From positions 62,001 to 126,000 of the forward strand of contig NZ_JAWPMM010000001.1 in assembly GCF_033344935.1 (NCBI RefSeq): a stretch of DNA of 64,000 nt, read 5' to 3'. Every line of letters begins with the position of its first letter. Position 1 is the stretch's first letter. Below the pieces are notes generated by a model that saw nothing but the letters and a program-made list of their open reading frames with translations, searched no databases and was not told the DNA's origin. This stretch comes from Reichenbachiella sp. GTDB lineage: Bacteria; Bacteroidota; Bacteroidia; Cytophagales; Cyclobacteriaceae. The position numbers and the translations under genes are program-made. This document shows positions 3,803-58,141 of this stretch, in pieces.

Positions 3803-3818
3803 AATAATTTCAATAAGA

Positions 3819-3900
3819 CCGTCATTGCGAGGAGGCACGACGAAGCAATCTCGAACCCTTAAAAATTAATGAGATTGCGTCGCCACGCTCGCAATGACGG
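3819..3900. repeat. Intergenic palindromic repeat, GTCATTGCGAG type
   Basis: The ends CCGTCATTGCGAG and CTCGCAATGACGG are perfect inverted copies. The interior has GAAGCAATCTC and GAGATTGCGTCG arms. The same family occurs at 27942-28017, partially at 7241-7288, and inside the larger palindrome at 43829-43945. It sits between two genes of one operon. Confidence 0.85.
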
Positions 3901-3915
3901 ATAAAAATTCACCCC

Positions 3916-5496
3916 ATGCACGGAAACAACAGGATAGGATTCGAATTATCAGACAAAGGAACAGCCACACTGCAATCCTTTAACCCAGCCACAGCAGAAA
4001 CACGGGCAGGTCAGTTTAAAGGTGCCACAGCACAAGATATTGAAGCGGCCATGAAGAAAGCGGAAATCGCTTTTGATGCTTATCGCCAAACCTCACCTGA
4101 ACAAAGAGCACAATTCTTAGAAGCCATTGCTGATGAAATTCTGAATCTTGGAGATGAACTCGTGCATGCCGCCATGGAAGAATCTGCGCTGCCAGAAGGG
4201 CGAATCGTAGGCGAACGTGGTCGTACCATGGGACAATTGAAATTGTTCGCTTCGCTCTTGAGAGAAGGTGCCTGGGTAGAAGCCACTATTGACACTGCTC
4301 AGCCAGATCGTGAGCCACTGCCAAAACCAGACATCAGAAAAATGCTCAGACCGATTGGGCCTGTAGTGGTCTTTACTGCAAGCAACTTTCCTTTGGCCTT
4401 TTCTACAGCTGGTGGAGATACGGCCTCGGCACTCGCTTCCGGCTGTCCAGTAGTGGTGAAAGCACACAATTCTCATTTGCAAACCAACGAACTAGTATCT
4501 GATGCCATTGCGAAGGCAGCGGAAAAAACAGGGATGCCCGATGGCGTCTATTCTTCGTTGGCAGGAGAAGGATTTGAACTGGGTACTACACTAGTAAAGC
4601 ATCCAAAAACAAAAGCTGTTGCCTTCACCGGTTCGTTAGGTGGTGGTATGGCACTATACAAAATGGCGATTGAAAGAGACGAGCCTATACCGGTCTTCGC
4701 CGAAATGGGAAGCATCAACCCTGTGATCTTCTTACCAGAAAAACTAAAAGCTGAAGCCAACGATTTAGCTAAAACTTACGCAGGGTCAATCACCTTAGGC
4801 GTAGGACAATTCTGTACTAATCCTGGATTGTTGATTGGTATCGAAGGTGCGGAGTTGGATCAATTCTGCGACACACTAGCCAATGAAATATCTGCAAGTG
4901 CTGCAGCTACCATGCTCAACGAAGGCATTGCCAAAAGCTATACCAAAAACAAAGAAACTTCATTAACCCAAAACGGAGTAAAGTTAATTAGTTCGAATAA
5001 TGGTGAGACTCCTCGTAACGGTGCTAACGCTGCCGTTGCGAGGGTTTCTGCCATTGACTTTTTAAGCAATCCTAATTTGCAGCACGAAGTATTCGGTCCT
5101 TACTCCTTAGTTGTAACGTGCCAAGACCAGTCTCAACTGGACGAAGTCATTGCTCAACTTACCGGGCAATTAACAATTACTTTTATGGGTAGTGAAAAGG
5201 ATTTCGAATCCTTTGAAAAACAAATTCAAGCTGCCGAGAAAAAGACAGGACGTTTGATTTACAACGGCGTACCAACAGGAGTGGAAGTTTGTGCTTCCAT
5301 GCAACATGGCGGACCATTCCCGGCAGCTACGGATAGTAGATTCACTTCTGTAGGCTCTGATGCGATCAAAAGATTTGCAAGACCTGTGGCATTTCAAAAT
5401 GCCCCTCAGTTTTTGTTGCCAGCAGAATTGAAAAACGAAAACCCAAACGGCATCTGGCGCAGTGTAGATGACCACTGGACAAACCAAGGCATATGA
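3916..5496 (+). CDS. 2-oxoglutarate semialdehyde dehydrogenase (aldehyde dehydrogenase family)
   Basis: The protein has 526 residues, longer than typical ALDHs (about 480-500) and matching the 2,5-dioxovalerate dehydrogenases of sugar-acid and hydroxyproline pathways. Visible catalytic residues are Asn157 (TASNFPLAF), Glu263 (FAEMGSINPV) and the nucleophile Cys300 (GVGQFCTNPG). It oxidises 2-oxoglutarate semialdehyde to 2-oxoglutarate with NAD(P)+, the last step of hydroxyproline breakdown. It follows the deaminase after a palindromic repeat. Its stop overlaps the start of the next gene by 4 bp (ATGA), so the DUF885 protein is translationally coupled to it. Confidence 0.9.
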   Translation: MHGNNRIGFELSDKGTATLQSFNPATAETRAGQFKGATAQDIEAAMKKAEIAFDAYRQTSPEQRAQFLEAIADEILNLGDELVHAAMEESALPEGRIVGERGRTMGQLKLFASLLREGAWVEATIDTAQPDREPLPKPDIRKMLRPIGPVVVFTASNFPLAFSTAGGDTASALASGCPVVVKAHNSHLQTNELVSDAIAKAAEKTGMPDGVYSSLAGEGFELGTTLVKHPKTKAVAFTGSLGGGMALYKMAIERDEPIPVFAEMGSINPVIFLPEKLKAEANDLAKTYAGSITLGVGQFCTNPGLLIGIEGAELDQFCDTLANEISASAAATMLNEGIAKSYTKNKETSLTQNGVKLISSNNGETPRNGANAAVARVSAIDFLSNPNLQHEVFGPYSLVVTCQDQSQLDEVIAQLTGQLTITFMGSEKDFESFEKQIQAAEKKTGRLIYNGVPTGVEVCASMQHGGPFPAATDSRFTSVGSDAIKRFARPVAFQNAPQFLLPAELKNENPNGIWRSVDDHWTNQGI

Positions 5497-43956: not shown

Positions 43957-45852
43957 TTACTGCGCCCCTTTGATGATCTCATCCACTACTTCCGGATTCA
44001 GCAATGTTGACGTATCCCCAAGGCTAGAAGTATCATTTTCCGCTACTTTTCTCAGGATTCTTCTCATGATTTTACCCGAACGTGTCTTCGGCAATCCCGG
44101 TACAATCTGAATTTTATCAGGTTTGGCAATCGGGCCAATAATTTTGTTGACAGTGGCTTTGATTTCATCTTTCAAGCTAGCTTCAGTTCTGCCTTCTGCA
44201 TCACAAATCACATAAGCGTAAATGCCCTGCCCTTTGATATCGTGTGGGTAGCCCACTACTGCAGATTCTACTACCAGAGGATGTTCATTGATGGCGTTTT
44301 CAACCTCGGCGGTGCCCATTCTGTGACCTGAAACATTGATCACATCATCTACTCTACCCATAATTCTGTAGTAACCATCTTCATCTCTTCTCACACCATC
44401 GCCTGTGAAATACATGCCTTTGTAGGTAGAGAAGTAAGTGTCGATGCACCTTTGATGATCACCATAAGTGGTTCGGATCATAGAAGGCCATGGAAAATTG
44501 ATACATAAATTACCTTCTACTCCATTTCCTTTCAATTCCTTGCCTTCTGCATCTACGATAATCGGTCGAATACCTGGTAAGGGTAAAGTAGCAAATGCGG
44601 GTTTGGTGGGTGTCAATCCAGCCAACGGTGAAATCATGATTCCTCCTGTTTCCGTTTGCCACCAGGTATCTACAATTGGGCATTTCCCTTTGCCAATATG
44701 ATCATGATACCAGTGCCATGCTTCTTCGTTGATAGGCTCGCCTACGGTTCCCAATACTTTTAAAGAGTCTAATTTATGTGGAGTCACTGGGTCTAAACCA
44801 AAAGCTTGTAATGCTCTAATCGCAGTTGGTGCGGTATAAAATTGGTTGACTTTATACTTGTCACAAATTTCCCAGAAACGACCAGCGTCCGGATAAGTAG
44901 GTACGCCTTCGAACATCACCGTAGTGGCACCAGACAATAGCGGACCATAAACAATATAGGAGTGACCAGTAATCCAACCTACATCGGCTGTACACCAATA
45001 AATATCATCGCTATTGTATTGAAATACATTTTGGAATGAAAACTGGGTGTAAACCATATAACCGCCAGTAGTATGCACTACGCCTTTAGGTTTTCCAGTA
45101 GACCCTGAGGTATAGAGAATGAATAGCATGTCTTCGCTATCCATTTCTTCTGCTTTGTGTTCTTTACTCGCCTTAGCCGTTTCCTCATGCCACCAAAGGT
45201 CTCTGCCAGATTGCATGGTTACTTCTGTTTTGGTTCGTCGTGCAACAATCACTTTCTCAATGGTGGTGCATTTTTCGATAGCTTCATCTACTACTGCTTT
45301 CACTGGGATAGTCTTCGCACCTCGGAAGTTCCCATCAGAAGTCAATACCATTTTAGCCTCACAGTCGTTAATTCTGTCGGCCAGGGCAGATGAAGAGAAT
45401 CCGGCAAATACCACCGAATGTACCGCCCCTACTCTTGCACAAGCCAGCATGGCAACAGCGGCTTCTGGAATCATCGGCATATAGATAATCACGCGATCAC
45501 CTTTTTCAATGCCGTTACTTTTCAAGACATTTGAAAATTCACATACTTTTTCAAAAAGCTGTTTGTAAGTGAGTGTGATTCCTGCTTCTTTAGGATCATT
45601 AGGTTCCCAAATGATTGCTGGCTTATCACCCAAGGTATATAGATGACGTTCTAATATGTTTTCGGTGATGTTTAGTTTGGCATTTTCAAACCACTTGACA
45701 TCAGCTTTTTCAAAATTGTAGTCCACAACTTTGTCCCACTTTTTTCTCCAAAAAAATTGATTGGCTACTCGTTCCCAAAAAGTTTCTGGGTTGGCCACAC
45801 TTTTTTCATAGGCCAAAAAGTACTCACTAAGGTTTTCTATTTTCGCTAGCAT
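43957..45852 (-). CDS. acs: Acetyl-CoA synthetase
   Basis: The protein has 631 residues, near the usual 650. The AMP-binding P-loop is ILYTSGSTGKPKGVVHT. The acetate pocket and nucleotide site lie around VDTWWQTETGGIM. The hinge is YYRIMGRVDDVINVSGHR, and the regulatory acetylation lysine is Lys594 in KTRSGKIMRR. It activates acetate with ATP and CoA. It is a single gene, divergent from purM. Confidence 0.96.
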   Translation of the reverse strand: MLAKIENLSEYFLAYEKSVANPETFWERVANQFFWRKKWDKVVDYNFEKADVKWFENAKLNITENILERHLYTLGDKPAIIWEPNDPKEAGITLTYKQLFEKVCEFSNVLKSNGIEKGDRVIIYMPMIPEAAVAMLACARVGAVHSVVFAGFSSSALADRINDCEAKMVLTSDGNFRGAKTIPVKAVVDEAIEKCTTIEKVIVARRTKTEVTMQSGRDLWWHEETAKASKEHKAEEMDSEDMLFILYTSGSTGKPKGVVHTTGGYMVYTQFSFQNVFQYNSDDIYWCTADVGWITGHSYIVYGPLLSGATTVMFEGVPTYPDAGRFWEICDKYKVNQFYTAPTAIRALQAFGLDPVTPHKLDSLKVLGTVGEPINEEAWHWYHDHIGKGKCPIVDTWWQTETGGIMISPLAGLTPTKPAFATLPLPGIRPIIVDAEGKELKGNGVEGNLCINFPWPSMIRTTYGDHQRCIDTYFSTYKGMYFTGDGVRRDEDGYYRIMGRVDDVINVSGHRMGTAEVENAINEHPLVVESAVVGYPHDIKGQGIYAYVICDAEGRTEASLKDEIKATVNKIIGPIAKPDKIQIVPGLPKTRSGKIMRRILRKVAENDTSSLGDTSTLLNPEVVDEIIKGAQ

Positions 45853-46052
45853 GCTTGTTTGCTTTTGTATCTGTTCATTTTATGCATCTTAAATTTATAT
45901 TCTTTTAAGAATTGTCAATTACTTTTTAGCTAAAAAGCTACTATTCATTGCTTAGTGCTCAAATCTTTTGAAAATTTTAGAATTGTCTAGCCTGTTCTAT
46001 CCTGAAAGGTTTGAAAAGCTGTCAGATTGACCTTAGACACTGTATAGTTTAT

Positions 46053-46060
46053 TAGCTTTG
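46053..46060 (+). promoter_or_regulatory. -7 element upstream of purM
   Basis: TAGCTTTG fits TAnnTTTG exactly. A TTG at 46027-46029 is 23 bp upstream, slightly longer than the optimum. The ATG follows 26 bp downstream. Confidence 0.4.
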
Positions 46061-46086
46061 CGGTCTAATCATAAAGACTATTCGTG

Positions 46087-47256
46087 ATGAACGAAAGATA
46101 CATGCAGCGCGGCGTATCAGCCTCCAAAGAAGACGTACACAATGCCATCAAAAACATCGACAAAGGCGTATTCCCAAATGCCTTTTGTAAGATCGTACCG
46201 GATATGTTGGCAGGTGACGAAGCCTATTGCAACATCATGCATGCGGATGGTGCTGGCACCAAGTCTTCACTGGCCTACATGTATTGGAAAGAAACCGGTG
46301 ACTTGTCGGTATGGAAAGGTATTGCTCAGGATGCAGTAATCATGAATACCGACGATTTACTTTGTGTTGGTGCCGTGGACAATATCCTGCTTTCTTCTAC
46401 CATCGGAAGAAATAAAAACTTGATTCCAGGAGAAGTACTTACAGCTTTGATCGAAGGCACAGAAGAAGTACTGCAGATGCTTCGAGACAATGGCGTGGAT
46501 ATTCGTTCGACTGGTGGAGAAACTGCCGACTTGGGCGATCTAGTCAGAACTGTGGTAGTAGACAGTACGGTAATTGGCCGAATGAAAAGAGCTGATGTGA
46601 TCACCAATGAAAATATTCAAGGGGGCGATGTAATTGTAGGACTAGCCTCGTACGGACAGGCCAACTACGAAAGCGAATACAACGGTGGCATGGGTAGCAA
46701 TGGACTGACCTCAGCCAGACACGATGTTTTCGCTAAAAAATACATGGAGAAATATCCGGAGTGTTTCGATCCTTCGGTGCCTGCTGATTTGATCTATTCA
46801 GGCTCAAAAGATTTATTGGATCAAGTAGAAGGCTCACCCTTAGATGCTGGTAAGCTCGTATTATCGCCGACCCGTACCTACGCCCCTATCATCAAGCAAA
46901 TGCTTGAAAACTACCGCAGCCAAATTCATGGAATGATTCACTGCAGTGGAGGTGCACAAACCAAAGTATTGCACTTTGTCAACGATGTACATGTAGTAAA
47001 AGACAACTTGTTCGAAATTCCTCCGCTATTCAAATTGATTCACCAAGAGAGTGGTACCGATTGGAAGGAGATGTACAAAGTATTCAATATGGGCCACCGT
47101 ATGGAGCTCTATGCACCTGAGGCTATCGCTCAACAATTGATTCAAATCTCTGAATCCTTTGGTGTGCCTGCTCAAATTATTGGAAGAGTGGAGTCGTCAG
47201 CGCAGACTAAAGCGACTATTACTACTGAGAATGGAACTTTTGAGTATTTGAAGTAA
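46087..47256 (+). CDS. purM: PurM: phosphoribosylformylglycinamidine cyclo-ligase
   Basis: The protein has 389 residues from the ATG at 46087 (a GTG directly precedes it). AIR synthase motifs are RYMQRGVSASKEDV, HADGAGTKSSLAYMYW, TDDLLCVGAVDNIL and STGGETADLGDLVRTVV. It is longer than the 345-residue E. coli enzyme, as is usual in this phylum. It closes the imidazole ring in purine synthesis. No other pur gene is close; the gene stands alone and converges on an outer-membrane protein gene. Confidence 0.92.
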   Translation: MNERYMQRGVSASKEDVHNAIKNIDKGVFPNAFCKIVPDMLAGDEAYCNIMHADGAGTKSSLAYMYWKETGDLSVWKGIAQDAVIMNTDDLLCVGAVDNILLSSTIGRNKNLIPGEVLTALIEGTEEVLQMLRDNGVDIRSTGGETADLGDLVRTVVVDSTVIGRMKRADVITNENIQGGDVIVGLASYGQANYESEYNGGMGSNGLTSARHDVFAKKYMEKYPECFDPSVPADLIYSGSKDLLDQVEGSPLDAGKLVLSPTRTYAPIIKQMLENYRSQIHGMIHCSGGAQTKVLHFVNDVHVVKDNLFEIPPLFKLIHQESGTDWKEMYKVFNMGHRMELYAPEAIAQQLIQISESFGVPAQIIGRVESSAQTKATITTENGTFEYLK

Positions 47257-47259
47257 TAG

Positions 47260-48585
47260 TTATTTTTTCTTATCGTATTGACCTATTTTGACTCTGAAGG
47301 ATAAGTAAATACTCATCGCTCGAGAGGGGTCATCTGAGAAGTAATAGGACAATATATTATCAGAGCCTAAATTGAGAAATCTCCATTGCAATCCAAACCC
47401 AGTGTGAAAATCGGAATATGTACTATACCCCATTGGGATGATCACAGCTACTTTTCGAATTTCATAGGTTGGAGCAACATGGATACTCCACACCGTATCT
47501 CCAGTAGATCGGTTCGATTCCCGAGGTTTCAAGAGCACATTAGAAACACTTAGACTCAAATGATTATATAGTTTGTATTTGGCAAATAGTATCGCACGAA
47601 AAGGTGTGCGTGTACTAAAGCGATCAATAGGAATGTCGTCTACTGAAAATTGTGCGCTCAATGAGTCCGTCAATTGATCTACACTTTGGATTTGTTGCAA
47701 GCTTTTACCATCTAGCGTTTCTCCATTCAAAGCGTAATCAGTACTGTTTTTTGCGCTTTTGTAATTGATTTTTCCAAGATCAAGAAACGACAAACCAATA
47801 GTCAGTCGGTCTTTCCATTGTGCTGAAAAACTAAAGTCAACGGAGTAGCCATTTTTTGAAAACAAATCTGCTTCGAAGGTCTCAGATTCCATCATCTGGT
47901 TCAGTTCGTCATTGTAAACAATGGACACTTTAGCAGAAATGTTATCAGTTTCAGAATTCCGAAAATCACTATTCAATCCGTCTATTTCAAATTTACCTGA
48001 AGCTATTCCCGACAAATAACGCAAGGTCAAGCCTGTTTGAACAGACCAATCGTCGGACACCTCCCAATTTCTAGCATAACTCAGACCAAACTGCATCCAG
48101 GAATTTGAGTACATGGTCATAAAGTCATCAAAAAATCTCCCATTGAAATTTTCGCCATCCCTTATGGACTGAATAAACTCCGAAAAATTTAAACCTGATG
48201 TTCTTTCATATGAGATGCTCCTAATCCCCGCGGAAAAAGCCACAGCATTGTTTTTGTTGATCGCGTAAGAAATAGTTGGCAAGACTACCCGAGCTTCCGC
48301 CATAACAAAATTAGCATCCAATGAAAGCAAATATCTAGGATTTGACGTGAGCATGGCAGATTTCATTTTTTCATAAAATGATCGCCCCTCATTATCACTA
48401 TTGAAAAGGTTGAACTGAGTACCAACTACCTGAATGTCCCATTTTGAACTTCTATCTACCAACAAAGAAGGCATGTTTCCTACGGCGTATACACCCGGGT
48501 GGTCAGCAAACAACGCAGATTTAAAATTTTGTGAATGAGAAAAAAATGGCAGCGCAAGCAGCCCTAATAGAAATAGTCTCTTCAT
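47260..48585 (-). CDS. Outer-membrane beta-barrel protein (DUF5723-like)
   Basis: The protein has 441 residues from the ATG at 48585, which starts the signal peptide MKRLFLLGLLALPFFSHS. The body alternates amphipathic strands with aromatic girdles (SYAINKNNAVAFSAGIRSISYE, VSDDWSVQTGLTLRYLSG, YSVDFSFSAQWKDRLTIGLS) and ends in a strand-rich tail. Length and the N-terminal GVYAVGNMPSLLVDR remind me of DUF5723 barrels of Bacteroidota, whose role is unknown. The barrel prediction is firmer than the family name. Confidence 0.65.
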   Translation of the reverse strand: MKRLFLLGLLALPFFSHSQNFKSALFADHPGVYAVGNMPSLLVDRSSKWDIQVVGTQFNLFNSDNEGRSFYEKMKSAMLTSNPRYLLSLDANFVMAEARVVLPTISYAINKNNAVAFSAGIRSISYERTSGLNFSEFIQSIRDGENFNGRFFDDFMTMYSNSWMQFGLSYARNWEVSDDWSVQTGLTLRYLSGIASGKFEIDGLNSDFRNSETDNISAKVSIVYNDELNQMMESETFEADLFSKNGYSVDFSFSAQWKDRLTIGLSFLDLGKINYKSAKNSTDYALNGETLDGKSLQQIQSVDQLTDSLSAQFSVDDIPIDRFSTRTPFRAILFAKYKLYNHLSLSVSNVLLKPRESNRSTGDTVWSIHVAPTYEIRKVAVIIPMGYSTYSDFHTGFGLQWRFLNLGSDNILSYYFSDDPSRAMSIYLSFRVKIGQYDKKK

Positions 48586-48805
48586 TGAAATTTGCGCCTC
48601 GAGCGTTAAATTTTTTCGCAAATATATCTGTATAAAGCAGTTGATTCTAGCTTAATATATTTTATTAAGCACTTATAGTTGAAACAACAACTACTTTGAC
48701 TAATCTACTTTTTATATTCCATTTTAAGCATAGAAATAAAATGGATAAGGCTGGTAATAAAGAAGATTACTTATATTAGAATACTTTTAACCATCTATTC
48801 GAAAT

Positions 48806-49195
48806 ATGCCTACACCTAAAGACGTGCTGGTCACAGTTACCGTTGACACTTCAGCCATTACTCAAGAAAATGTAAGACAAACCATTGTCCTATCCGACGA
48901 CAATGGAGGTTCAGACCAAACACCAAATGATAGCTGCACTTTCTTATCTAAAATTAACGATAAAGCCAAAGTCACATTTGAAATTAGGGCAAAGGATGGC
49001 TCGACAAGTGTATCCTTTGTGTCATTCAACAAAACAGGCTTAGGGCCAAACGTGATGAATCCCATGCCACATGCACCAAAATGGAGGGCTACAGCGAATG
49101 GTAAGAGCAAAGATCGCGAGTCCTATTCATTCACCATACAGGTTGAAAACAAGGGTGAATTTACCCTAGATCCAGAAATTGAAATTTTTCCATGA
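48806..49195 (+). CDS. Small beta-rich protein coupled to sensor kinase, copy A
   Basis: The protein has 129 residues, no signal peptide and no membrane segment, so it should be cytoplasmic. It is rich in alternating hydrophobic beta-strands: VLVTVTVDTSAITQENV, KVTFEIRAKDGSTSVSFVSF, ESYSFTIQVENKGEFTLDP. It shares roughly half of its residues with the protein at 52147. The VTVDT...N..I.L.D start, central P..W and C-terminal FTLDP.I.I remind me of the PixA/AidA inclusion-body family, but this is from memory of the pattern and not tested. Its stop overlaps the kinase ATG (ATGA). I infer a ligand-binding or regulatory partner of that kinase. Confidence 0.75.
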   Translation: MPTPKDVLVTVTVDTSAITQENVRQTIVLSDDNGGSDQTPNDSCTFLSKINDKAKVTFEIRAKDGSTSVSFVSFNKTGLGPNVMNPMPHAPKWRATANGKSKDRESYSFTIQVENKGEFTLDPEIEIFP

Positions 49196-51987
49196 TCCAA
49201 TGTCATTCCATTTTTAAACTCCTTTTGACTCTCTGCATTTGCTTTAGTTCATTTTTGCCTTCTCAGACATTTGGTCAGTCTGGAAAATTAAATTCACCAG
49301 ATAGTTTGGTAGCGCTGATTGAAGGAGAAGAACCATTAGTCGATTCTCTTCGATTTTTATATCTACTAAAAATCAGTCAGTACCATACTAGCCCGGCGGT
49401 AAGAATCAAATATGCCCAAATAGCTAAAAATATTGCGACAGAAGAAGATAACCTGCTTTGGAAAAGACATAGCGCACATTGTTTGGGATATGCGTATAAA
49501 CAATCTGGAGATCTGACTTTAGCTCTTGAACACTTTCTTGCTGGCTTAAGATTCGCCCTAGAACTAGATTCCGCACTGATGGTGGCAAATTCCTACAATG
49601 CCATAGCCACTGTTTATAAACTGCAAAACAACAATGGACTGGCTTTAGATTACTATAATAAGAGTATTAGTGTGTATGAAAAGCAACAAGATACGCTTCG
49701 TCTGGCGAGTTCAATTCTAAATAAAGGTGAACTTCTCCGAGCAAGCAACAATCTCGATTCTGCCATTTCATCATTTAATATATCCATCCAGTTGTATGAA
49801 ATTATCCAGCATGATAGGTATTTGGCTTATGCCAAAGGCAACTTAGGGTTAGCACTGGCAGAGTTAGGAAATATTGATAACGCAGAGCCATTGATCAATG
49901 AAGCCTTAGAAACCCTACACAACTATAATGATCACTATGCCATAGCCAGCTATCAAACTTCCTTAGCGGAAATATACTCCAAGCGGGACCAAACCAATAA
50001 GGCAATCATTACATCTCTGAATGCTTTGGTAATTAGCGAAAAATATGGGCTAAAAGAACAAATCAAAGACGTTAGCTTACTTCTATCAGAATTGTTTCGT
50101 GATCAAGGTGATTACCGCAAGGCCTATTACCATCAAAACCAATACATCGCCTATCGTGATAGCATAAACAATGAAGAAGTGGTTCGACAAATGGCCGACC
50201 TGCGTACGGACTTTGAAGTGTCTAAAAAACAAGTAGAAGTAGACCTACTCAGCGAAAAAAACAGAAATGCAAACCTCATGCTCTATGGGGCTCTACTTGG
50301 TTTGTTGTTTGTGGTGGGCGTGGCCATCGTGATTTACCGTGCCTTGGTTGCCAACAAAAAACTTTCAGCAATCAATCGCCGGCAGGCCGACCGCCTCCAG
50401 CAACTCGACGCTGCCAAATCACGCTTCTTTGCCAATATATCACACGATCTTAGAAGCCCCTTGACGCTGATCACTGGCGGCATCAACCAGGTGCTTCAAA
50501 ACAAAGACGTTTTCCTTACAAAGAAAGCCGAACAACAACTCCAAACAGCCCAGCTCAATAGCGAGCGCATCATACACATGACCGGAGAGATCAACGAATT
50601 GATCCAACTCGAGGAGGGCAAGCTTACCTTGCACAAAGCCTATGTGGACTTAGACCGCATGCTTACGCTCTTCGAGCAGATGTTTAGCGCCACCGCCGAA
50701 CAACACGAAATCGAATGGAGTTATACCAAAGACGCCACGTTAGAGCAGCCGATTGTACACGTCGATCCGCACCAATTCGAAAAGGTGCTGTTCAACCTGA
50801 TCACCAATGCCATAAAGCATACCCAGCCAGGAGATCAAATAGCCGTTCGATTGACGGGGGATGATCAAAATGTACAGCTCTCCGTGAGCGACACCGGCGA
50901 AGGCATACCACCAGAAAAACTTCCTCATATCTTCGAAAGATACTTTCAAGCACCCGACAAAGATTATAAAGCCAAGGAGGGTTTTGGTATTGGTCTCGCA
51001 CTCGTGCAAGAGATCGTACACCAGCACGGAGCCAAAATCAAAGTGGAAAGTAAGCTCGGCAAAGGCTCCACTTTTGTGGTGACTATGCCTCACCAGGCAG
51101 TTGTAGATCAAGAGCTTTATCAACTCACCGACTTAAGCTACAGCGGCGAGAAACAAGCGCTGTATCGTGACATAGACGATCAGTTGGCTGGCTCGAGGCC
51201 AACCGTGCACTTAGATACACTCAAGAAAAATGATCGTGAAACCCTAGCAACAATTCTAGTGGTGGAAGATCATCCAGAAGTGCGTGCATACATCACGGAT
51301 GTGATTGAAACCAGCTATCAGGTGATCCATGCGCCTAATGGACTGAAAGCGCTTCGCATGCTGGAAACAGAATCCGTCGACCTAATCATTACAGATTTGA
51401 TGATGCCCTGGCTGGATGGGTTCGAATTGCTAGAGCGCCTCAAAGAAGATGAGAAGTATCGAAAAATTCCGGTGCTGGTTCTCTCCGCCCGTACATCAGA
51501 GAAAGATAAATCACGAGTTTTGTCTCAAGGTGTGAATGACTTCTTATGCAAACCTTTCAAACCCAACGAATTGCTTCAACGAGTAGAAAATCTGCTTAAC
51601 ATGAAAGCCACTTGGAACAACTCTGATCCAAATGCTTTGGTGATCAATAATACCGAGACACTAGCTGATGTAGAAAAGTCTATACTCAACAAAGTAGAAC
51701 AACTCATCTTTGATAAAATCGATGACCCGCACTTGAGCATTGGCTATCTGGCAGATCAAATAGCTATGAGTGAAAGGAATTTCTATCGAATGATCAAACG
51801 ACTGACGGATGCCACACCGTTAGAACTGATTAAAGAACTGAGACTGCAAATGGCTCATAAAATCCTGAATGAAAAAACGGTAAGTAACAGTTCAGAAGTA
51901 GCCAAGCAAATAGGCATCAACAACGTCACCCACTTCAATACCCAATTTAAAAAGAGATTTGGCAAGAGCCCCAAAGACCTCATCTAG
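49192..51987 (+). CDS. Hybrid TPR sensor histidine kinase with receiver and AraC-type output
   Basis: The protein has 931 residues. A signal or anchor (to about 29) precedes a TPR sensor region at about 65-325 outside the membrane and a transmembrane helix at about 362-383. HisKA carries His418 in ANISHDLRSPL. The HATPase domain has the N box LFNLITNAIKHT and G boxes SDTGEGI and GFGIGLAL. The receiver domain at about 686-800 has phospho-acceptor Asp735 (ITDLMMPWLDG) and Lys787. A C-terminal AraC-type HTH lies at about 825-931. It combines sensing and transcription in one chain. It is coupled to the small protein before it. Targets are unknown; its own cassette is one possibility. Confidence 0.93.
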   Translation: MIQCHSIFKLLLTLCICFSSFLPSQTFGQSGKLNSPDSLVALIEGEEPLVDSLRFLYLLKISQYHTSPAVRIKYAQIAKNIATEEDNLLWKRHSAHCLGYAYKQSGDLTLALEHFLAGLRFALELDSALMVANSYNAIATVYKLQNNNGLALDYYNKSISVYEKQQDTLRLASSILNKGELLRASNNLDSAISSFNISIQLYEIIQHDRYLAYAKGNLGLALAELGNIDNAEPLINEALETLHNYNDHYAIASYQTSLAEIYSKRDQTNKAIITSLNALVISEKYGLKEQIKDVSLLLSELFRDQGDYRKAYYHQNQYIAYRDSINNEEVVRQMADLRTDFEVSKKQVEVDLLSEKNRNANLMLYGALLGLLFVVGVAIVIYRALVANKKLSAINRRQADRLQQLDAAKSRFFANISHDLRSPLTLITGGINQVLQNKDVFLTKKAEQQLQTAQLNSERIIHMTGEINELIQLEEGKLTLHKAYVDLDRMLTLFEQMFSATAEQHEIEWSYTKDATLEQPIVHVDPHQFEKVLFNLITNAIKHTQPGDQIAVRLTGDDQNVQLSVSDTGEGIPPEKLPHIFERYFQAPDKDYKAKEGFGIGLALVQEIVHQHGAKIKVESKLGKGSTFVVTMPHQAVVDQELYQLTDLSYSGEKQALYRDIDDQLAGSRPTVHLDTLKKNDRETLATILVVEDHPEVRAYITDVIETSYQVIHAPNGLKALRMLETESVDLIITDLMMPWLDGFELLERLKEDEKYRKIPVLVLSARTSEKDKSRVLSQGVNDFLCKPFKPNELLQRVENLLNMKATWNNSDPNALVINNTETLADVEKSILNKVEQLIFDKIDDPHLSIGYLADQIAMSERNFYRMIKRLTDATPLELIKELRLQMAHKILNEKTVSNSSEVAKQIGINNVTHFNTQFKKRFGKSPKDLI

Positions 51988-52146
51988 AATGTAATCTTTT
52001 TCATTTCATTTTGTATGGAAAGAAGAGTTACACACTTTCACCATTTCATATCTCTAAATCTTCTTTTTTTTCCTCCACATTGATTAATATTAGGGTTCCA
52101 CCTGTTCTCAATTAGTTTTATTTTTAACTTTAAACAAAGAATAAGT

Positions 52147-52539
52147 ATGCCTCAACCAAAGGACATTACTGTAACTGTTACCGTGGATACGGAAACCATT
52201 ACACAAGCAAATGTGAACACTACCATCGTACTCACAGATGATAACAATGACCACGACAATACTCCAGGTGATAGCTCAACCTTTGACATTATCGCCAATG
52301 ACGGAGCTACAATTACTTTTCAAATAGCACAAAAAAATGGGGGTACTGGGGTTTCCTTCGTTTCATTCGACAAGGAACCAGGTGGATCAGCAATTATGGA
52401 CCCACTACCATCCTCTCCAAATTGGGTTGGAACAATTAATGGTGCTCAGGAAGCAACTGAGAGTTATTCTATAACTATTGACGTTCCAAACAAAGGGCAA
52501 TTTACATTAGATCCCAAAATAGATATTAAGGGGCCTTGA
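52147..52539 (+). CDS. Small beta-rich protein coupled to sensor kinase, copy B
   Basis: The protein has 130 residues, a paralogue of the protein at 48806 with about half of its positions identical. Shared blocks include TVTVDT, GVSFVSF versus SVSFVSF, ESYS.TI.V.NKG and FTLDP.I.I. It has no signal peptide. The stop overlaps the TTG start of the following kinase (TTGA), so the two are translated together. The repetition of small gene plus kinase argues that the pairing is functional, not accidental. The function is unknown; a PixA/AidA-like fold is my best guess. Confidence 0.75.
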   Translation: MPQPKDITVTVTVDTETITQANVNTTIVLTDDNNDHDNTPGDSSTFDIIANDGATITFQIAQKNGGTGVSFVSFDKEPGGSAIMDPLPSSPNWVGTINGAQEATESYSITIDVPNKGQFTLDPKIDIKGP

Positions 52540-54470
52540 TAATAACCAAAAACAAAGCAACTATAATTTTAGCCTACATTTTTGTAGGCTTTCTTGTTCC
52601 CTTGGCCTACGGACAAAATCAAAATCAAGCAGATAGTTTAATAGAGTTACTTAATGCTCCGAATAAATATACAGATTCAACTATTTGTGCGATCTATAAT
52701 GACATAGCGTTTTATTCAACTCAGCCTAACAAGCGAATTCAGTATGCGAAAGAAGCCTCAAAACTAGCCTCCAGAATACAAGATGAGCGTCAACTTGCAC
52801 TTAGTTTAAGATACCAAGGATCAGGCTACAGCTCTAAAGGTCATCTAAGTGAGGCCATCAAACTATATCTGGCCTCGGCCATTCATTATTCAAAAGCAAA
52901 ATTAGACTTAGGTGTCGCTGTAGTTTACATTGATCTAGGAGATATTTATTCAAAACAGAAGAATTTTAAGAATTCAACTTATTACTATAATAAAGGAATT
53001 CGCATATTACGAGAAAAGCAGGATTCAATAAGGCTTGCTAGTGCTCTTTTAAACACTGGGGATTTATATCTGGAATCATTGATCTATGATTCGGCTCTTT
53101 TATATTTTCAAGAATCGGAGAAAATTTTTGATTCAATTGATTATCCCATCGGTAAAGCCTATTGTATTGGGAACGTTGGATTGATACTTTCTCATACAAA
53201 AAGCTTAGAACTCGGCGAAAGAAAAATAAAAGAAGCAATTGATATTTTAGAAAAGCATAATCATGTCATTGCTATATCGATTTACCAAACTTCATTAGCA
53301 GATATTTACGCACAACGTGGGGACTTAAATAGAGCGCTGAATTATGCATACAGCGCCCTTTCCATTGGAGAAGAAGAAGGTTTAAAAGAACAAATAAGAG
53401 ATGCCAGTCTCAAACTTTCAGAGCTATATCAAACTCAGGGTGACTATAAAAAGGCTTACAATTATCAAAGTCAATATATAACTTTTCGAGACAGCATTAA
53501 CAATGAAGAAGTGATCCGCAAGATGGCCGACCTCCGTACAGAGTATGAGGTGGGACAAAAACAAGCCGAAGTAGATCTGAAACAAACAGAAGTGGATTTA
53601 CTCAATGAACAAGCAAGAAATAATCAGATCGTGCTCTGGAGTGTGATTGTAGTATTGGTATTGGTCCTATGCCTGACCTATGCATTGCTCAAAGTCTATC
53701 GAGTAAAAGCGCGTGCCGTGAGAATCGTGCGACAAAGGCGGCGTGTCATCGCTGCGCAGCGTGATCAACTGGAAGATGTCAATCGCACCAAAGACAAATT
53801 CTTTTCTATCATCTCTCATGATATTCGCGGTCCTATTAGTAATTTTCAAGGGGTCTCTCAGCTGATTCATTTGCTGGTAGAAAGTAAGGATTATGACGGC
53901 TTACTCAAGTTGGGTACAATGCTAGACACTTCCACCAAAGAAGTTTCTTCCTTGCTAGATAATCTCTTGGAATGGGCTATGAGCCAGCAGGGGCGCATGC
54001 CTTACAAACCTGAAACTATCAAACTTCATGAGCTGTGTAATTCCAACCTCAGCATCATGGAGAATCTAGCTACTGCCAAGCAAATCACCTTGACCGAAAA
54101 AGTAAAAGAAAAAGTCACCATCACCGCAGATAAAAACAGCATATCTACCATTATTCGGAATCTACTGAGTAATGCAATCAAGTTTACTCCTGAAGGTGGA
54201 ACCGTAGATCTCCAGTTGAGTTACGATCTAAATATGGCGGTACTGATAGTCAAAGATTCTGGAATCGGTATACCCAAAGAGAAGATGCAACACCTATTCG
54301 ACTTCAAAGGCGAACGCAGTCGCTGGGGTACGGGTGGAGAAAAAGGCGTAGGTCTTGGACTGACGCTGATTCACGAATTCGTAGAGCTCAACAAAGGCAA
54401 GATCGAGGTGGATAGTGAAGAAGGTAAGGGGACTACTTTTAAGGTTTACTTGCCTTTGGTTATCGATTAA
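52536..54470 (+). CDS. TPR sensor histidine kinase without receiver
   Basis: The protein has 644 residues. A TTG start is required, because the signal peptide (MIITKNKATIILAYIFVGFLVPLAYG) begins there and has no other Met. An AAGGGG ribosome site lies just upstream. TPRs span about 50-325, a transmembrane helix about 365-387, and HisKA contains His428 in SIISHDIRGPI. The HATPase domain has LLSNAIKFTPEGG, KDSGIGIP and GVGLGLTL. The TPR-to-membrane linker (SINNEEVIRKMADLRTEYEV) closely matches that of the kinase at 49192, so both descend from one ancestor. No receiver or HTH is attached, so it needs a separate response regulator; the receiver of the neighbouring hybrid kinase is one candidate. 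Confidence 0.92.
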   Translation: MIITKNKATIILAYIFVGFLVPLAYGQNQNQADSLIELLNAPNKYTDSTICAIYNDIAFYSTQPNKRIQYAKEASKLASRIQDERQLALSLRYQGSGYSSKGHLSEAIKLYLASAIHYSKAKLDLGVAVVYIDLGDIYSKQKNFKNSTYYYNKGIRILREKQDSIRLASALLNTGDLYLESLIYDSALLYFQESEKIFDSIDYPIGKAYCIGNVGLILSHTKSLELGERKIKEAIDILEKHNHVIAISIYQTSLADIYAQRGDLNRALNYAYSALSIGEEEGLKEQIRDASLKLSELYQTQGDYKKAYNYQSQYITFRDSINNEEVIRKMADLRTEYEVGQKQAEVDLKQTEVDLLNEQARNNQIVLWSVIVVLVLVLCLTYALLKVYRVKARAVRIVRQRRRVIAAQRDQLEDVNRTKDKFFSIISHDIRGPISNFQGVSQLIHLLVESKDYDGLLKLGTMLDTSTKEVSSLLDNLLEWAMSQQGRMPYKPETIKLHELCNSNLSIMENLATAKQITLTEKVKEKVTITADKNSISTIIRNLLSNAIKFTPEGGTVDLQLSYDLNMAVLIVKDSGIGIPKEKMQHLFDFKGERSRWGTGGEKGVGLGLTLIHEFVELNKGKIEVDSEEGKGTTFKVYLPLVID

Positions 54471-54777
54471 GATGGCTTCATCATTCCACGATGACCTAAA
54501 ACGGCATTCGGGGAATCTGTTCGCTAGGAGAGCTGCTTTTCTCCAACAAGCTATTAGCCCGAAAAGGATTACCTGGATAAACCAGGTGATGACGCCCGTT
54601 CAGTCTATTATCATCGGACGCCTTGGCTCGTGTTTTCACGAAGCATAATCAAAGTAAGGTTCGTGAGGACACGAACCTGATCTGTTGGCATATTCCGATC
54701 TCCAAAAAAACAACCCTTTGCGGACCGGTTCCGCGACCCGTCTGAAAAAACTTCTGCTGCCCGAAATACAGATGCCG
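54471..54777. other. 307-bp structured, non-coding spacer
   Basis: There is no credible gene. The stretch looks richer in G+C than its neighbours and contains several hairpins: AGGTTCGTG/CACGAACCT at 54657-54678 (perfect 9-bp), TCGTG-TTTT-CACGA at about 54628-54641, and GCGGA..TCCGC at about 54720-54734. It could hold terminators of the kinase gene or a structured RNA. It matches no RNA family I can recognise. Confidence 0.5.
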
Positions 54778-54786
54778 CAACAGGTG
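54778..54786. repeat. Target-site duplication, left
   Basis: CAACAGGTG directly precedes the left inverted repeat of the IS element and recurs at 56330-56338. Confidence 0.9.
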
Positions 54787-54795
54787 CCATAGCCG

Positions 54796-56160
54796 TCAAG
54801 TTAAGAAGTTGTTTATGGTCTTAAACACATTTTGTTTTCCGTTTTTGGTTTCAGTGAGATATTTTCTATCAGATCGGATGAGTAATTTTTTAAACCAGTA
54901 TTCTAGGGGTTGGTCTTCAAAAACAACTTTCTTGAGGTCATTAGATAGCCTAAAAGCTGTTTTGAAAAATTTATTCTGACTGCACCGTATAGCCATTCCT
55001 TGGTCAAGCAAGCCCTGTTCTATTAACCTGAAGGCTTGATAGTGGAGCATGATCCAGATAAAGCGGGCAATAAGCTGGCACTGGAATCTTTCCTGTTTCA
55101 TAGCTTTCATTTTGTCAATTCGGGCTTGTGATTTCCAGGCTTTGAATACAAGTTCGATTTGCCAGCGGGTGCGGTATATGCCTTGAACCTGTGAAGTGGA
55201 AACCCATGCTTTTGGCACATTGGTTATAAATATGTTCAGCCATGCCCTTGTTTTATACTCTTTACTGACCTTGTGTCTACCATGGGCTGCTCTTTCAGCC
55301 CTCAATAAACGTTGTTTGTAAACCTGCTCGGGCACTTTTGCAACAATCATTCGCATCGGCATATCTGCGATTTTCACCTCCAGCTCTAAAGCAGGCAATG
55401 TGTGTTTGTTGAGTTTTCTCAATATGGCAGAAAAGTCGATTGGAGCCTGGTCCACATCCTGAACGCCCCACCTGCTGTTTAAGCGGTTCAGGAAATAAGC
55501 CCCTTGTTGGGAAACATGCTTCAGATAGTGCTGGGTCACATAGCCCAAGTCCCGAACCAAGAGGTCTCCCTTTTCGATATCGCCCAGGGTTTGCCTAGAA
55601 TCTGTTTGATCATTACGGCAGGCTGCCGTCAATTCCAGCCTTTGAGTGACATTGGTAAGCAAATCATATTCATACTGGATACTGATCTGGGCCTTGCTGC
55701 CTTGGCCTCCATGACCTTTGAACGTTTTGGCATAAGCCTCTGGAAGCGTGTACCGTGTAGAATCTTTGACCATCACCCGATTGAACCGCTTAAATTTGTT
55801 TTGTTCAGATGGGTTCAAATTCAGCTGCCCAGCCAGCAATTGGCTAAGCAAAGCACTCATAAATTCGACAGCCTTGATATTGAACCGCTCTTGGACGGCT
55901 TGTTTTGAAATAGACAAACCATGTTGCTCAACAAAACCATTGGCCAGATCCTCAAGGCTCACTTGATCTAGGTACTGATCACAAAAAAGAAGTAGATCAA
56001 GGAACTTAGATGCGTCCAAACGTGACTTACGCTGTACAAAGCCACTCTCCCTGGCCAAAAGATCAAGTTTCTCTTTAGAAAAAATCTTATTTAAACAGCC
56101 TGAAAAACAACTGGCCTTAGCCTCAATTAGTTGTGAAATTTCTTGTCGGTTCTTCCCCAA
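54796..56160 (-). CDS. IS4-family transposase
   Basis: The protein has 454 residues. An N-terminal helical region (LDASKFLDLLLFCDQYLDQ) precedes the DDE domain: first Asp in VMVKDSTRYTLPEAY, second in LLVRDLGYVTQHYL, and the Y-(2)-R-(3)-E-(6)-K signature in YRTRWQIELVFKAWK. This YREK box is diagnostic of IS4 transposases, and the reading frame is uninterrupted. It catalyses cut-and-paste movement of the flanking inverted repeats. The stop codon overlaps the left repeat. Confidence 0.95.
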   Translation of the reverse strand: MGKNRQEISQLIEAKASCFSGCLNKIFSKEKLDLLARESGFVQRKSRLDASKFLDLLLFCDQYLDQVSLEDLANGFVEQHGLSISKQAVQERFNIKAVEFMSALLSQLLAGQLNLNPSEQNKFKRFNRVMVKDSTRYTLPEAYAKTFKGHGGQGSKAQISIQYEYDLLTNVTQRLELTAACRNDQTDSRQTLGDIEKGDLLVRDLGYVTQHYLKHVSQQGAYFLNRLNSRWGVQDVDQAPIDFSAILRKLNKHTLPALELEVKIADMPMRMIVAKVPEQVYKQRLLRAERAAHGRHKVSKEYKTRAWLNIFITNVPKAWVSTSQVQGIYRTRWQIELVFKAWKSQARIDKMKAMKQERFQCQLIARFIWIMLHYQAFRLIEQGLLDQGMAIRCSQNKFFKTAFRLSNDLKKVVFEDQPLEYWFKKLLIRSDRKYLTETKNGKQNVFKTINNFLT

Positions 56161-56179
56161 ACAGTATTTTTGAGAAAGA

Positions 56180-56219
56180 AAAAAGGCAGGTCACTAATAC
56201 ATCAAAAGCCCGCCTTTTT
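56180..56219. terminator. Hairpin inside the IS right end
   Basis: AAAAAGGCAGG and CCCGCCTTTTT pair with one mismatch around an 18-nt loop, with A/T runs on both sides. It lies upstream of the transposase and may block read-in transcription from the flanking GH15 side, a common IS safeguard. Confidence 0.65.
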
Positions 56220-56329
56220 GTTCATTTAAAAATCAAACAAATATGGGGAAGAACACTAGGTATTCCTAACTGGGATACCATGCCCAAACCACAAATTCAG
56301 TCGAGAAAACCTTAGCTTGACGGCTATGG

Positions 56330-56338
56330 CAACAGGTG
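56330..56338. repeat. Target-site duplication, right
   Basis: CAACAGGTG immediately follows the right inverted repeat and matches 54778-54786. Confidence 0.9.
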
Positions 56339-56356
56339 CGGCAAGGAGTATTCCAC

Positions 56357-58141
56357 TTATCTAAAATCAGGCTTATCCAACTTCTTAGCAATTCTATGCG
56401 CAGCATTCAATAGACCTACGTGACTATATGCCTGAGGGAAGTTGCCCCACATGCTGCCATCGTGCTCATTCACATCCTCACTCAAAAGACCCACATGATT
56501 AGAATAACCGACCAAATTATCGAAGTACTCCACGGCTTCATCCACGCGACCCACACAGGCCAAGGCCTCCACATACCAGAAAGCACAAATCAAGAAGGTA
56601 GTTTCGGGCTCACCAAAATCATCCTGATGCTTATATCGATAGAACAAGCCATTGGAAGCTTTCAGGTCTTTCTCCATGGCTTTGAGGTGCTCCTTGGCTC
56701 TATCAGAGTTGTTGTCCAGGTAGCCCATGTTGATCAACTGCAAACAACTGGCATCCATACGATCTGTACCGATCGCCTGACTATAGCCTTTCTTGCTGGC
56801 GCTATAGCACTGCTCAATTTTAGCCTTGGCTATTTTTCCGAGCTTCTGAGCCAGTTTGCCCATTTTTTCATCCTTCAAAACCACTGCGATCTTTTCTGCC
56901 GCCATGCTTCCTGCCCAGTGAAACAAATAAGTATAGCAGTGATGTTGACTCAAGTTTCTAAATTCCCAAAGGCCTGCATCTGTCTGCTCCATGGTTTTTT
57001 CGATCAGCCCAAGTGTCTTGTGAATCAAATCACCAGAGTCGTACCTTTCGGTAAATATGATTCTTTGGTCATAGTATAGCGGAAGCAAAGACAAAAGCAC
57101 CTGTCCGTACACATCATTTTGAATATGTTCATAGGCCTGATTTCCGACTCTGACGGGCTGATTACCCTGATAGCCTTTCAGTTTGGTTTCTATCTCCACC
57201 AAATCTTTCTCTCCTCCAATACCAAACAATGGCTGATAGCGATCATTTTCCGCACTGGTGATATTCATGATGTAGTGGAAGTACTTTTCCAGCTCCTCAA
57301 AGTGACCAATGTGATTGAAGGCATTGAGTGTATAGTAGGTATCACGCATCCAGCAGAATCGATAATCCCAATTTCGGGTAGACCCAGGAGACTCTGGCAA
57401 ACTGGTGGTAGTAGCAGCTACAATAGCGCCAGTATCTTCAAACTGATGAATCTTGAGCGTAAGCGCCGAGCGAATGGCAGCCTTCTGATAGAAGTTGGCA
57501 ATACTCGCTGTCTTCACCCATTTGTGCCAATAGTTGACCGTACGGTTCAAGAATAGCTCCGCGGTCTCTTTCAAATCTGTTTCCAATGGAGGCCCGAAGG
57601 TCAATACCAAATACTTAGTTTCGTTTAGGACAAACTCCTGATCTTTCATCAAATAGCTCAATGAGATGTTGGTAGTCAGTCGTACCTGAGATTCTAATCC
57701 TATATAGCGGATATGGTTGCTTCCCATGCTTCGTTCTGGACGGGTATTGCCATAATCACCTACCGGGTCACAGACCACTTTGATGTTTGGATGCTCAGAT
57801 ATCGGCTCGATCTTTCTTATCAGCATCAACGGCTTATAGCTGCGCTCAAATTGCAAATATCTTGGCGCAAAATCCGTGACTCTATACTTTCCAGTGGAGC
57901 TTGTTATTTCTGTGCATAGCACATTGGTATTTTCCAGATAATATTGTTTCGAATCATAATCACCCTCCACAGGTAAAGCTGAAAACTCACCTCCCTTTTC
58001 ATCGTCGATCAGATTGCCGAAAATGAAACTGCTGTCGAATCTCGGCCAACACATCCAAGCGATGTTGGTATCTGTTTTGATGTGAGCGGTATATGCACAG
58101 TTGCCAATTACACCATAGTCATAGGTATGTCTATTATCCAT
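56357..58141 (-). CDS. Glycoside hydrolase family 15 protein
   Basis: The protein has 594 residues with no signal peptide. An N-terminal beta-sandwich (YDYGVIGNCAYTAHI, WMCWPRFDSSFIFGNLID) is followed by the (alpha/alpha)6 barrel, with RNWDYRFCWMRDTYYTL, and near the C-terminus SEDVNEHDGSMWGNFPQAYSHVGLL. These segments match the bacterial GH15 group that includes trehalases and glucoamylase-like enzymes. Cytoplasmic GH15 proteins often act on trehalose or maltose-type substrates; which one applies here is not readable. Its 3' end lies 28 bp from the IS element, but the coding sequence is intact. Confidence 0.9.
   Translation of the reverse strand: MDNRHTYDYGVIGNCAYTAHIKTDTNIAWMCWPRFDSSFIFGNLIDDEKGGEFSALPVEGDYDSKQYYLENTNVLCTEITSSTGKYRVTDFAPRYLQFERSYKPLMLIRKIEPISEHPNIKVVCDPVGDYGNTRPERSMGSNHIRYIGLESQVRLTTNISLSYLMKDQEFVLNETKYLVLTFGPPLETDLKETAELFLNRTVNYWHKWVKTASIANFYQKAAIRSALTLKIHQFEDTGAIVAATTTSLPESPGSTRNWDYRFCWMRDTYYTLNAFNHIGHFEELEKYFHYIMNITSAENDRYQPLFGIGGEKDLVEIETKLKGYQGNQPVRVGNQAYEHIQNDVYGQVLLSLLPLYYDQRIIFTERYDSGDLIHKTLGLIEKTMEQTDAGLWEFRNLSQHHCYTYLFHWAGSMAAEKIAVVLKDEKMGKLAQKLGKIAKAKIEQCYSASKKGYSQAIGTDRMDASCLQLINMGYLDNNSDRAKEHLKAMEKDLKASNGLFYRYKHQDDFGEPETTFLICAFWYVEALACVGRVDEAVEYFDNLVGYSNHVGLLSEDVNEHDGSMWGNFPQAYSHVGLLNAAHRIAKKLDKPDFR

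Follow-up and report, generated by a model that had tools for sequence, protein, structure and literature searches.

What does a small protein do when its gene is joined to that of a membrane receptor, and is it tied to one kind of enzyme? The question is raised by a locus in a 64,000 nucleotide stretch of a Reichenbachiella sp. genome (assembly GCF_033344935.1, contig NZ_JAWPMM010000001.1, positions 62,001 to 126,000; this whole stretch is called the window here), in which two adjacent gene pairs each consist of a small gene and a downstream gene for a tetratricopeptide repeat (TPR) histidine kinase. Our computational analysis finds the same pairing across Bacteroidota, with receptors whose outputs differ, and we give a probability of roughly one half to the explanation that the pair is a two-gene sensory module, in which the small protein is a dedicated partner, on the input side, of a class of TPR receptors whose outputs are interchangeable. 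With the same reservation, such a partner seems a better account than the kinase-specific cytosolic regulator proposed in a preliminary description of the locus.

The stop codon of each small gene in the window overlaps the start of its receptor gene by four bases, and the ATGA at 49192 and the TTGA at 52536 lie just where that description had placed them. The two small proteins are indeed alike; their identity, 57% over 127 residues without a gap, is higher than the "about half" first given. The receptors are less alike (34% identity over 649 columns), and the linker between their TPRs and the membrane, which had been called shared, is visibly better kept than the rest. The first of them, however, is more than the TPR histidine kinase originally described, being a hybrid kinase with its own receiver and a DNA-binding domain (HTH_18), whereas the second ends after HATPase_c and has no receiver.

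The remainder of this 4.88 Mb genome bears on whether the arrangement is accidental. A1, a profile built from ten closely related small proteins, finds three small genes in it at E 0.001 or better, and the third (4845277-4845618) is immediately upstream of a TPR kinase gene. A profile of the TPR part of the receptors (A3), built from coupled receptors only, has 49 matches in the same genome, the top three with E below 1e-124 and the next at 1.6e-35. Among the best 30 of these 49 matches, whose loci were read (at most 29 frames, with at least 741 bases upstream of each), a small gene adjoins three, which are the three closest receptors, and none of the other 27. Since all three small genes lie upstream of the three closest receptors, and 27 of the 30 TPR loci have none, the pairing is not due to chance.

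Recurrence of the pair across Bacteroidota

A survey that started from the small gene (148, 390 and 395 genomes, in overlapping sets) gave 49 places, including the three just mentioned, and at 44 of them a TPR receptor gene is directly downstream on the same strand. The five misses (survey loci carry L numbers) are L083, an orphan small gene with a signal peptide and no receptor; L086 and L087; and L041 and L051. L086 and L087 are PixA-like tandem pairs without a TPR receptor, in which the second gene has an extra N-terminal stretch. L041 and L051 were judged to be probable chance matches to short stretches within large proteins and are still scored as misses. The reverse survey ran A3 against the genome contigs of 84,980 species; 154 stretches matched, 114 were confirmed and 80 loci were kept. 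A small gene is upstream on the same strand at 76 of these 80 loci of close kin to the coupled receptors, and for 78 of their 86 receptor frames (a gap of up to 1500 bases was allowed; the largest found is 323). Two of the small-gene matches are weak (L133, E 1e-4, and L119, E 5e-5). The receptors with no detected small gene are L131, L154, L156 and L144; at L144 a 166-residue protein ending in IDPKLKV overlaps the receptor and looks by eye like a divergent member, which was not counted. Recurrent adjacency in distant genomes, from which the preliminary description expected support, is thus what both surveys found.

Among the named hosts of the pair are Reichenbachiella, Fulvivirga, Marivirga, Aquiflexum, Flavobacterium, Gillisia and Flavihumibacter, and metagenome-assembled genomes (MAGs) of Saprospiraceae and Bacteroidales. 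At L053 a second pair adjoins the first, a further case of a duplicated cassette, and in five cases two small genes precede the receptor. Spacing, measured in 123 pairs from the in-frame receptor start nearest the small gene, is an overlap of 1-4 bases in 28, a gap of 0-30 bases in 71, a larger overlap in 10, a gap of 31-100 in nine and a larger gap in five. Six loci occur in both surveys, so that the 131 receptors represent 125 distinct ones and the 128 small proteins 122. Of the 77 small proteins extracted, 66 entered alignment A4 together with the two of the window (68 in all); alignment A7 holds 47 of the 80 receptor loci and two more.

Other searches delimit the family. Of 19 matches to canonical long PixA genes, found in 11 of 296 Bacteroidota genomes and all read in their loci, none adjoins such a TPR receptor. 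Small protein 1, used as a single sequence against genome contigs, gave no match, no relative of small protein 2 turned up on plasmids, and the open-access literature that was searched contains no description of this gene pair. Two loci are unusual in other ways. The contig of L119, labelled as a Rickettsiales MAG, resembles Marinoscillum (L157) in the layout of its four receptor frames and two small genes; it is possibly a mis-binned Bacteroidota contig. At L131 (3848-5944) the TPR-class receptor carries a SpoIIE phosphatase, there is no small gene, and a glutathione peroxidase-like gene stands upstream.

Receptor outputs and the shared input region

The partner of the small protein is not a kinase as such; the output is exchangeable and the pair stays. 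When each receptor was compared by phmmer with one example per output type, 66 of the 125 distinct receptors were found to end in a class III cyclase, which overturns the earlier claim that the partner is specifically a kinase. Kinases of various types total 54 (46 HisKA-type, one hybrid, four HisKA_3-type and three of another kinase type) and five are unassigned; before removal of duplicates the 131 receptors comprised 70 cyclases, 48 HisKA-type kinases, the window's hybrid, four HisKA_3-type, three other kinases and the same five. The unassigned receptors are L004 and one frame of L119, both cut, L139 (a cut frame of another kind), L131 (a SpoIIE phosphatase by Pfam) and L093, which stops near its contig end. 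The L093 frame (2923-4107, 394 amino acids) finishes right after the membrane span, with no output domain. A Pfam scan of 44 receptors found TPR_12 in all 44, HATPase_c and Guanylate_cyc in 21 each, and HisKA in 14. In a quick tree of 116 TPR regions, made without a mixture model after identical and short rows had been removed, output class changes at least six times. The idea that the small protein regulates the kinase domain was set back when the cyclase receptors turned up.

What kinase and cyclase receptors best share lies on the other side of the membrane span. Between 49 kinase-type and 65 cyclase-type receptors the mean column identity is highest in the pre-membrane linker (0.60), lower in the last TPR stretch (0.40), the TPRs (0.36) and the span (0.28), and lowest beyond the membrane (0.175). 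Of 123 coupled receptors, 120 have a hydrophobic segment N-terminal to the TPRs (in the other three the open frame starts within the TPR region), and 116 have a membrane span after them. Because one span separates the TPRs from the cytoplasmic enzyme domain, the TPR region and the pre-membrane helix should be periplasmic. The region that the two receptor types best share, and that is kept beside the small gene, would then be a periplasmic input part, and since it is this part that is best shared, the small protein probably serves the input end of the receptor.

A model of receptor 2 residues 28-362 from 49 sequences (mean predicted local distance difference test, pLDDT, 93.7) has 14 TPR-type helices leading into a long helix toward the membrane. 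Its nearest solved structures by Foldseek include the peptide-binding TPRs of LGN/Pins complexes and of Rap pheromone receptors (RapI, E 8.5e-8), besides consensus TPRs and kinesin light chain. TPR grooves can hold peptides, although likeness of fold alone is no proof of function. Distances between small proteins correlate better with those between TPR regions than with those between outputs, both among kinase types (n=42; 0.457 against 0.263, partial correlations 0.43 and 0.21) and among cyclase types (n=65; 0.464 against 0.323, partial 0.38 and 0.15), which fits a partner of the TPR region.

The features of the two pairs are collected in the table. Receptor 1 exceeds the Pfam cut-offs for TPR_12 (67.9 bits), HisKA (36.6) and HATPase_c (104.7); receptor 2 does so for TPR_12 (56.7) and HATPase_c (88.3) and falls slightly under for HisKA (25.5 against a cut-off of 26.9). 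Window positions 45000-58000 hold no separate response regulator gene adjoining receptor 2. The next gene encodes a DDE transposase (PF01609; 54796-56160, minus strand), so that the cassette borders a mobile element on its right side; on its left a gene for a DUF5723 protein (47260-48621, minus strand) is divergent from small gene 1. The source genome is a single contig, and the nearest named relatives found for the receptors are from Reichenbachiella.

Features of the two small-gene/receptor pairs (positions in the window)
Feature	Position	Strand	Description
Small gene 1	48806..49195	+	129 aa; PixA/MakCD-type beta-sandwich; no recognised leader; Asp122-Pro123
ATGA stop/start overlap, small gene 1 / receptor 1	49192..49195	+	
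Receptor 1	49192..51987	+	931 aa; hydrophobic N-terminus, TPRs, membrane span, HisKA, HATPase_c, receiver, HTH_18
Membrane span, receptor 1	50266..50358	+	about residues 359-389; hydropathy scan
Small gene 2	52147..52539	+	130 aa; same family as small gene 1; no recognised leader; modelled pLDDT 86.6
TTGA stop/start overlap, small gene 2 / receptor 2	52536..52539	+	
Receptor 2	52536..54470	+	644 aa; hydrophobic N-terminus, TPRs, membrane span, HisKA, HATPase_c
Putative periplasmic part, receptor 2	52617..53621	+	14 TPR-type helices and long pre-membrane helix; model pLDDT 93.7
Pre-membrane linker, receptor 2	53490..53603	+	residues 319-356; stretch best common to kinase-type and cyclase-type receptors
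Membrane span, receptor 2	53613..53711	+	about residues 360-392; hydropathy scan

Fold and relatives of the small protein

The window's small proteins belong to a short, receptor-coupled branch of the PixA/MakC/MakD superfamily. An AlphaFold2 model of small protein 2 from 68 sequences (pLDDT 86.6) has MakD and MakC as its top Foldseek matches (E 7.6e-8 and 8.1e-8), and VIA-align gives Z scores of 15.5 for MakD, 15.4 for MakC, 12.6 and 10.7 for PixA structures 4lzk and 4pib, 11.5 for the Chitinophaga structure 4q52, 9.3-11.2 for SO1698 of Shewanella oneidensis and 7.1 or lower for the remaining rows. MakD and MakC superimpose on the model with a root mean square deviation of 2.1 over 119 and 121 residues, respectively, and A1 matches MakC (E 6.2e-9) and MakD (E 3.2e-7) over nearly their full length. 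Family models find less in the window: its proteins score 15.8 and 20.7 bits with NF049870 (MakCD), far under the cut-off of 110, and neither matches PF12306 (PixA; gathering score 21 bits) or PF08985 (DP-EP/DUF1888, the family to which we take SO1698 to belong) at E up to 1. Among the 68 A4 proteins, with E 0.01 as the limit, 11 match NF049870 (best 7.9e-15), eight match PF12306 and none match PF08985. Of eight proteins scanned singly, four exceed the PF12306 cut-off, all of them coupled relatives (L100, L103, L104 and L171); L065 does not. Protein Data Bank (PDB) sequence searches with the single small proteins gave chance matches or none. The 345 Bacteroidota genomes searched for DP-EP gave one match, below cut-off. 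Searches of the Reichenbachiella genome for MakCD and DP-EP found no match, and since the controls were equally silent this has no bearing on absence.

These relatives stand in other surroundings. Vibrio cholerae MakC and MakD (PDB 8rqy, 6tct) have the same beta-sandwich fold, a similar length and no leader, and are two similar proteins encoded side by side, but their neighbour is a toxin operon and not a TPR receptor. The PixA/AidA inclusion body proteins share the fold; canonical PixA is about 180 amino acids long, however, while the coupled small proteins are mostly of 110-150 residues. SO1698 has the fold and an Asp-Pro near its C-terminus at about the aligned place, but no sequence match to the window's family. 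The literature describes PixA-type proteins as poorly understood (PMC9060813) and the function of MakC and MakD as unknown, though their crystal structures have been solved (PMC11484084).

On the receptor side, the FimS-kind TPR sensor kinases (NF053520) have a similar TPR and kinase layout and match receptor 2 over residues 205-640, but at 256.9 bits against a cut-off of 600. The Rap/RRNPP pheromone receptors are also of TPR fold, and Rap genes too are coupled with those of a small partner, Phr; Rap proteins, though, are soluble proteins of the cytosol that pair with a short peptide, whereas the window receptors have a hydrophobic N-terminus and a membrane span by hydropathy and their small partner is a folded domain.

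Location and possible roles of the small protein

If the TPR domain is periplasmic, then where the small protein resides becomes critical. Export signals, called by eye with a hydropathy aid and not with SignalP, were seen in 13 of the 122 distinct coupled small proteins: Tat-like (twin-arginine translocation) in L058 and L176, a lipobox in L168, and Sec-type in L066, L067, L079, L082, L089, two proteins of L095, L163, L164 and L167. Three further proteins (L071, L118 and L166) are doubtful, with a hydrophobic stretch before the likely start, and were scored as signal-free; L142 is cut at its start. The presence of a signal changes at least five times on the TPR tree. The word "cytosolic" used earlier may suit the window proteins and most of their relatives, in which no signal peptide was recognised, but would not suit the 13 with an export signal; the best-shared receptor part, moreover, would be periplasmic. 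For small gene 1 an in-frame stop lies six codons before the start and leaves no room for a leader. Upstream of small gene 2 are 21 open codons, rich in hydrophobic residues and without ATG, GTG or TTG, from which a leader with a rare start is just conceivable. Two coupled small proteins have additional parts: that of L071 (3552-4520, minus strand) lies behind a fused ricin-type lectin domain (PF14200), which hints at an input connected with carbohydrates, and that of L140 (3352-3804) has a hydrophobic C-terminal tail resembling a membrane anchor.

In the module that we favour, the receptor would cross the membrane once, its TPR domain facing the periplasm and its output the cytoplasm, and the small gene would supply a dedicated partner of PixA/MakCD fold, probably made together with the receptor through translational coupling. 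This partner would bind the input part, either in the TPR groove or along the conserved pre-membrane helix, and would serve there as a ligand, a co-sensor or the carrier of a ligand; the bound state would be relayed inward by helix and span to the attached kinase, hybrid kinase or cyclase. For the leaderless majority a meeting in the periplasm is something that we infer; these copies would either leave the cytoplasm by an unseen route or act inside it.

The strongest alternative is that the small protein is a cytosolic regulator acting at the receptor's cytoplasmic face, on the juxtamembrane coil or the output domain; the scarcity of export signals and the location of MakC and MakD speak for it and against an input-side partner. 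No export signal was recognised in 109 of the 122 distinct coupled small proteins, the window's included, and for small gene 1 a leader does not fit. MakC and MakD are cytosolic according to PMC11484084. Twelve of the 13 signals are in cyclase pairs and the single kinase pair is L058, so export is poorly supported for kinase pairs like those of the window; this lowers our estimate for the input-side partner slightly and raises that for the cytosolic regulator slightly. Other points weigh against an input-side partner: three columns beyond the membrane (L412, D429 and L456 of receptor 2) score high between kinases and cyclases. The distance correlations are also a weak test, as the genes are linked and the small gene adjoins the TPR-coding end, so that recombination could yield the same difference, and the 76 of 80 loci were found with a profile made solely from coupled receptors. 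We nevertheless consider a cytosolic regulator doubtful, as the cytoplasmic part differs between kinase and cyclase receptors though the pairing persists, and as relatives that bear an export signal are coupled just like the others.

Mere co-regulation is unlikely. The small protein would here act elsewhere, as a storage, envelope or stress protein of PixA-like kind, and the receptor would sense the need for it with no contact between them. PixA and AidA proteins do rise toward stationary phase or stand under quorum control, as stated in PMC9060813, and contact of the small protein with the receptor, on which an input-side partner depends, is again something that we infer. On the other hand, coupling is kept in both duplicated cassettes (the window's and L053) and in the third copy of the genome, with differing outputs and across Bacteroidota, canonical PixA genes lack it, and the small protein tracks the TPR domain.

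A bolder reading starts from the C-terminus of the small protein. In an alignment that covers all 122 distinct small proteins, 119 rows retain Asp122 and 121 retain Pro123, and the length from the proline to the end among 120 motif-bearing proteins is seven residues in 62 and 6-9 in 96. The aligned ranges of the structure comparison, on which alone the equivalence rests, put this motif at or within one residue of Asp116-Pro117 of SO1698 (offset 6 in some rows and 5 or 7 in others). SO1698 is annotated as an aspartic peptidase, and reportedly (Osipiuk, in 2012) cleaves itself after Asp116. Its aligned mutant chains fit such cleavage: those of Y26F, K98A, P115A and Q118A end at 116 (lengths 111-114), and those of D37A, S114A, D116A and P117A reach 123-125 (lengths 119-122). 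By analogy, the small protein might cleave itself at Asp122-Pro123 and free a C-terminal peptide, typically of 7-9 residues (consensus PKIQVNP), that binds the receptor's TPR groove, but we consider this very unlikely. MakC keeps Asp-Pro at the corresponding place and yet was solved as residues 1-131, to its C-terminus, and MakD has Ser-Pro, so the motif is probably structural, and by itself it is no proof. An assembly or export chaperone for the TPR domain is about as improbable as that: the position right upstream (overlaps of 1-4 bases or gaps of 0-30 in most pairs) and the leaderless copies would suit it, but versions with export signals exist and 27 other TPR loci in the genome manage without a small gene.

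Across Bacteroidota one branch of the superfamily is linked at the level of genes to a single class of receptors, whatever their output. Were the Asp-Pro cleavage reading true, it would be the membrane-receptor equivalent of Rap-Phr peptide signalling, with kinase and cyclase outputs that can be exchanged. For the PixA/MakCD superfamily the pairing offers a definite role that can be tested, and for a group of TPR kinases and TPR cyclases it supplies a candidate partner on the input side.

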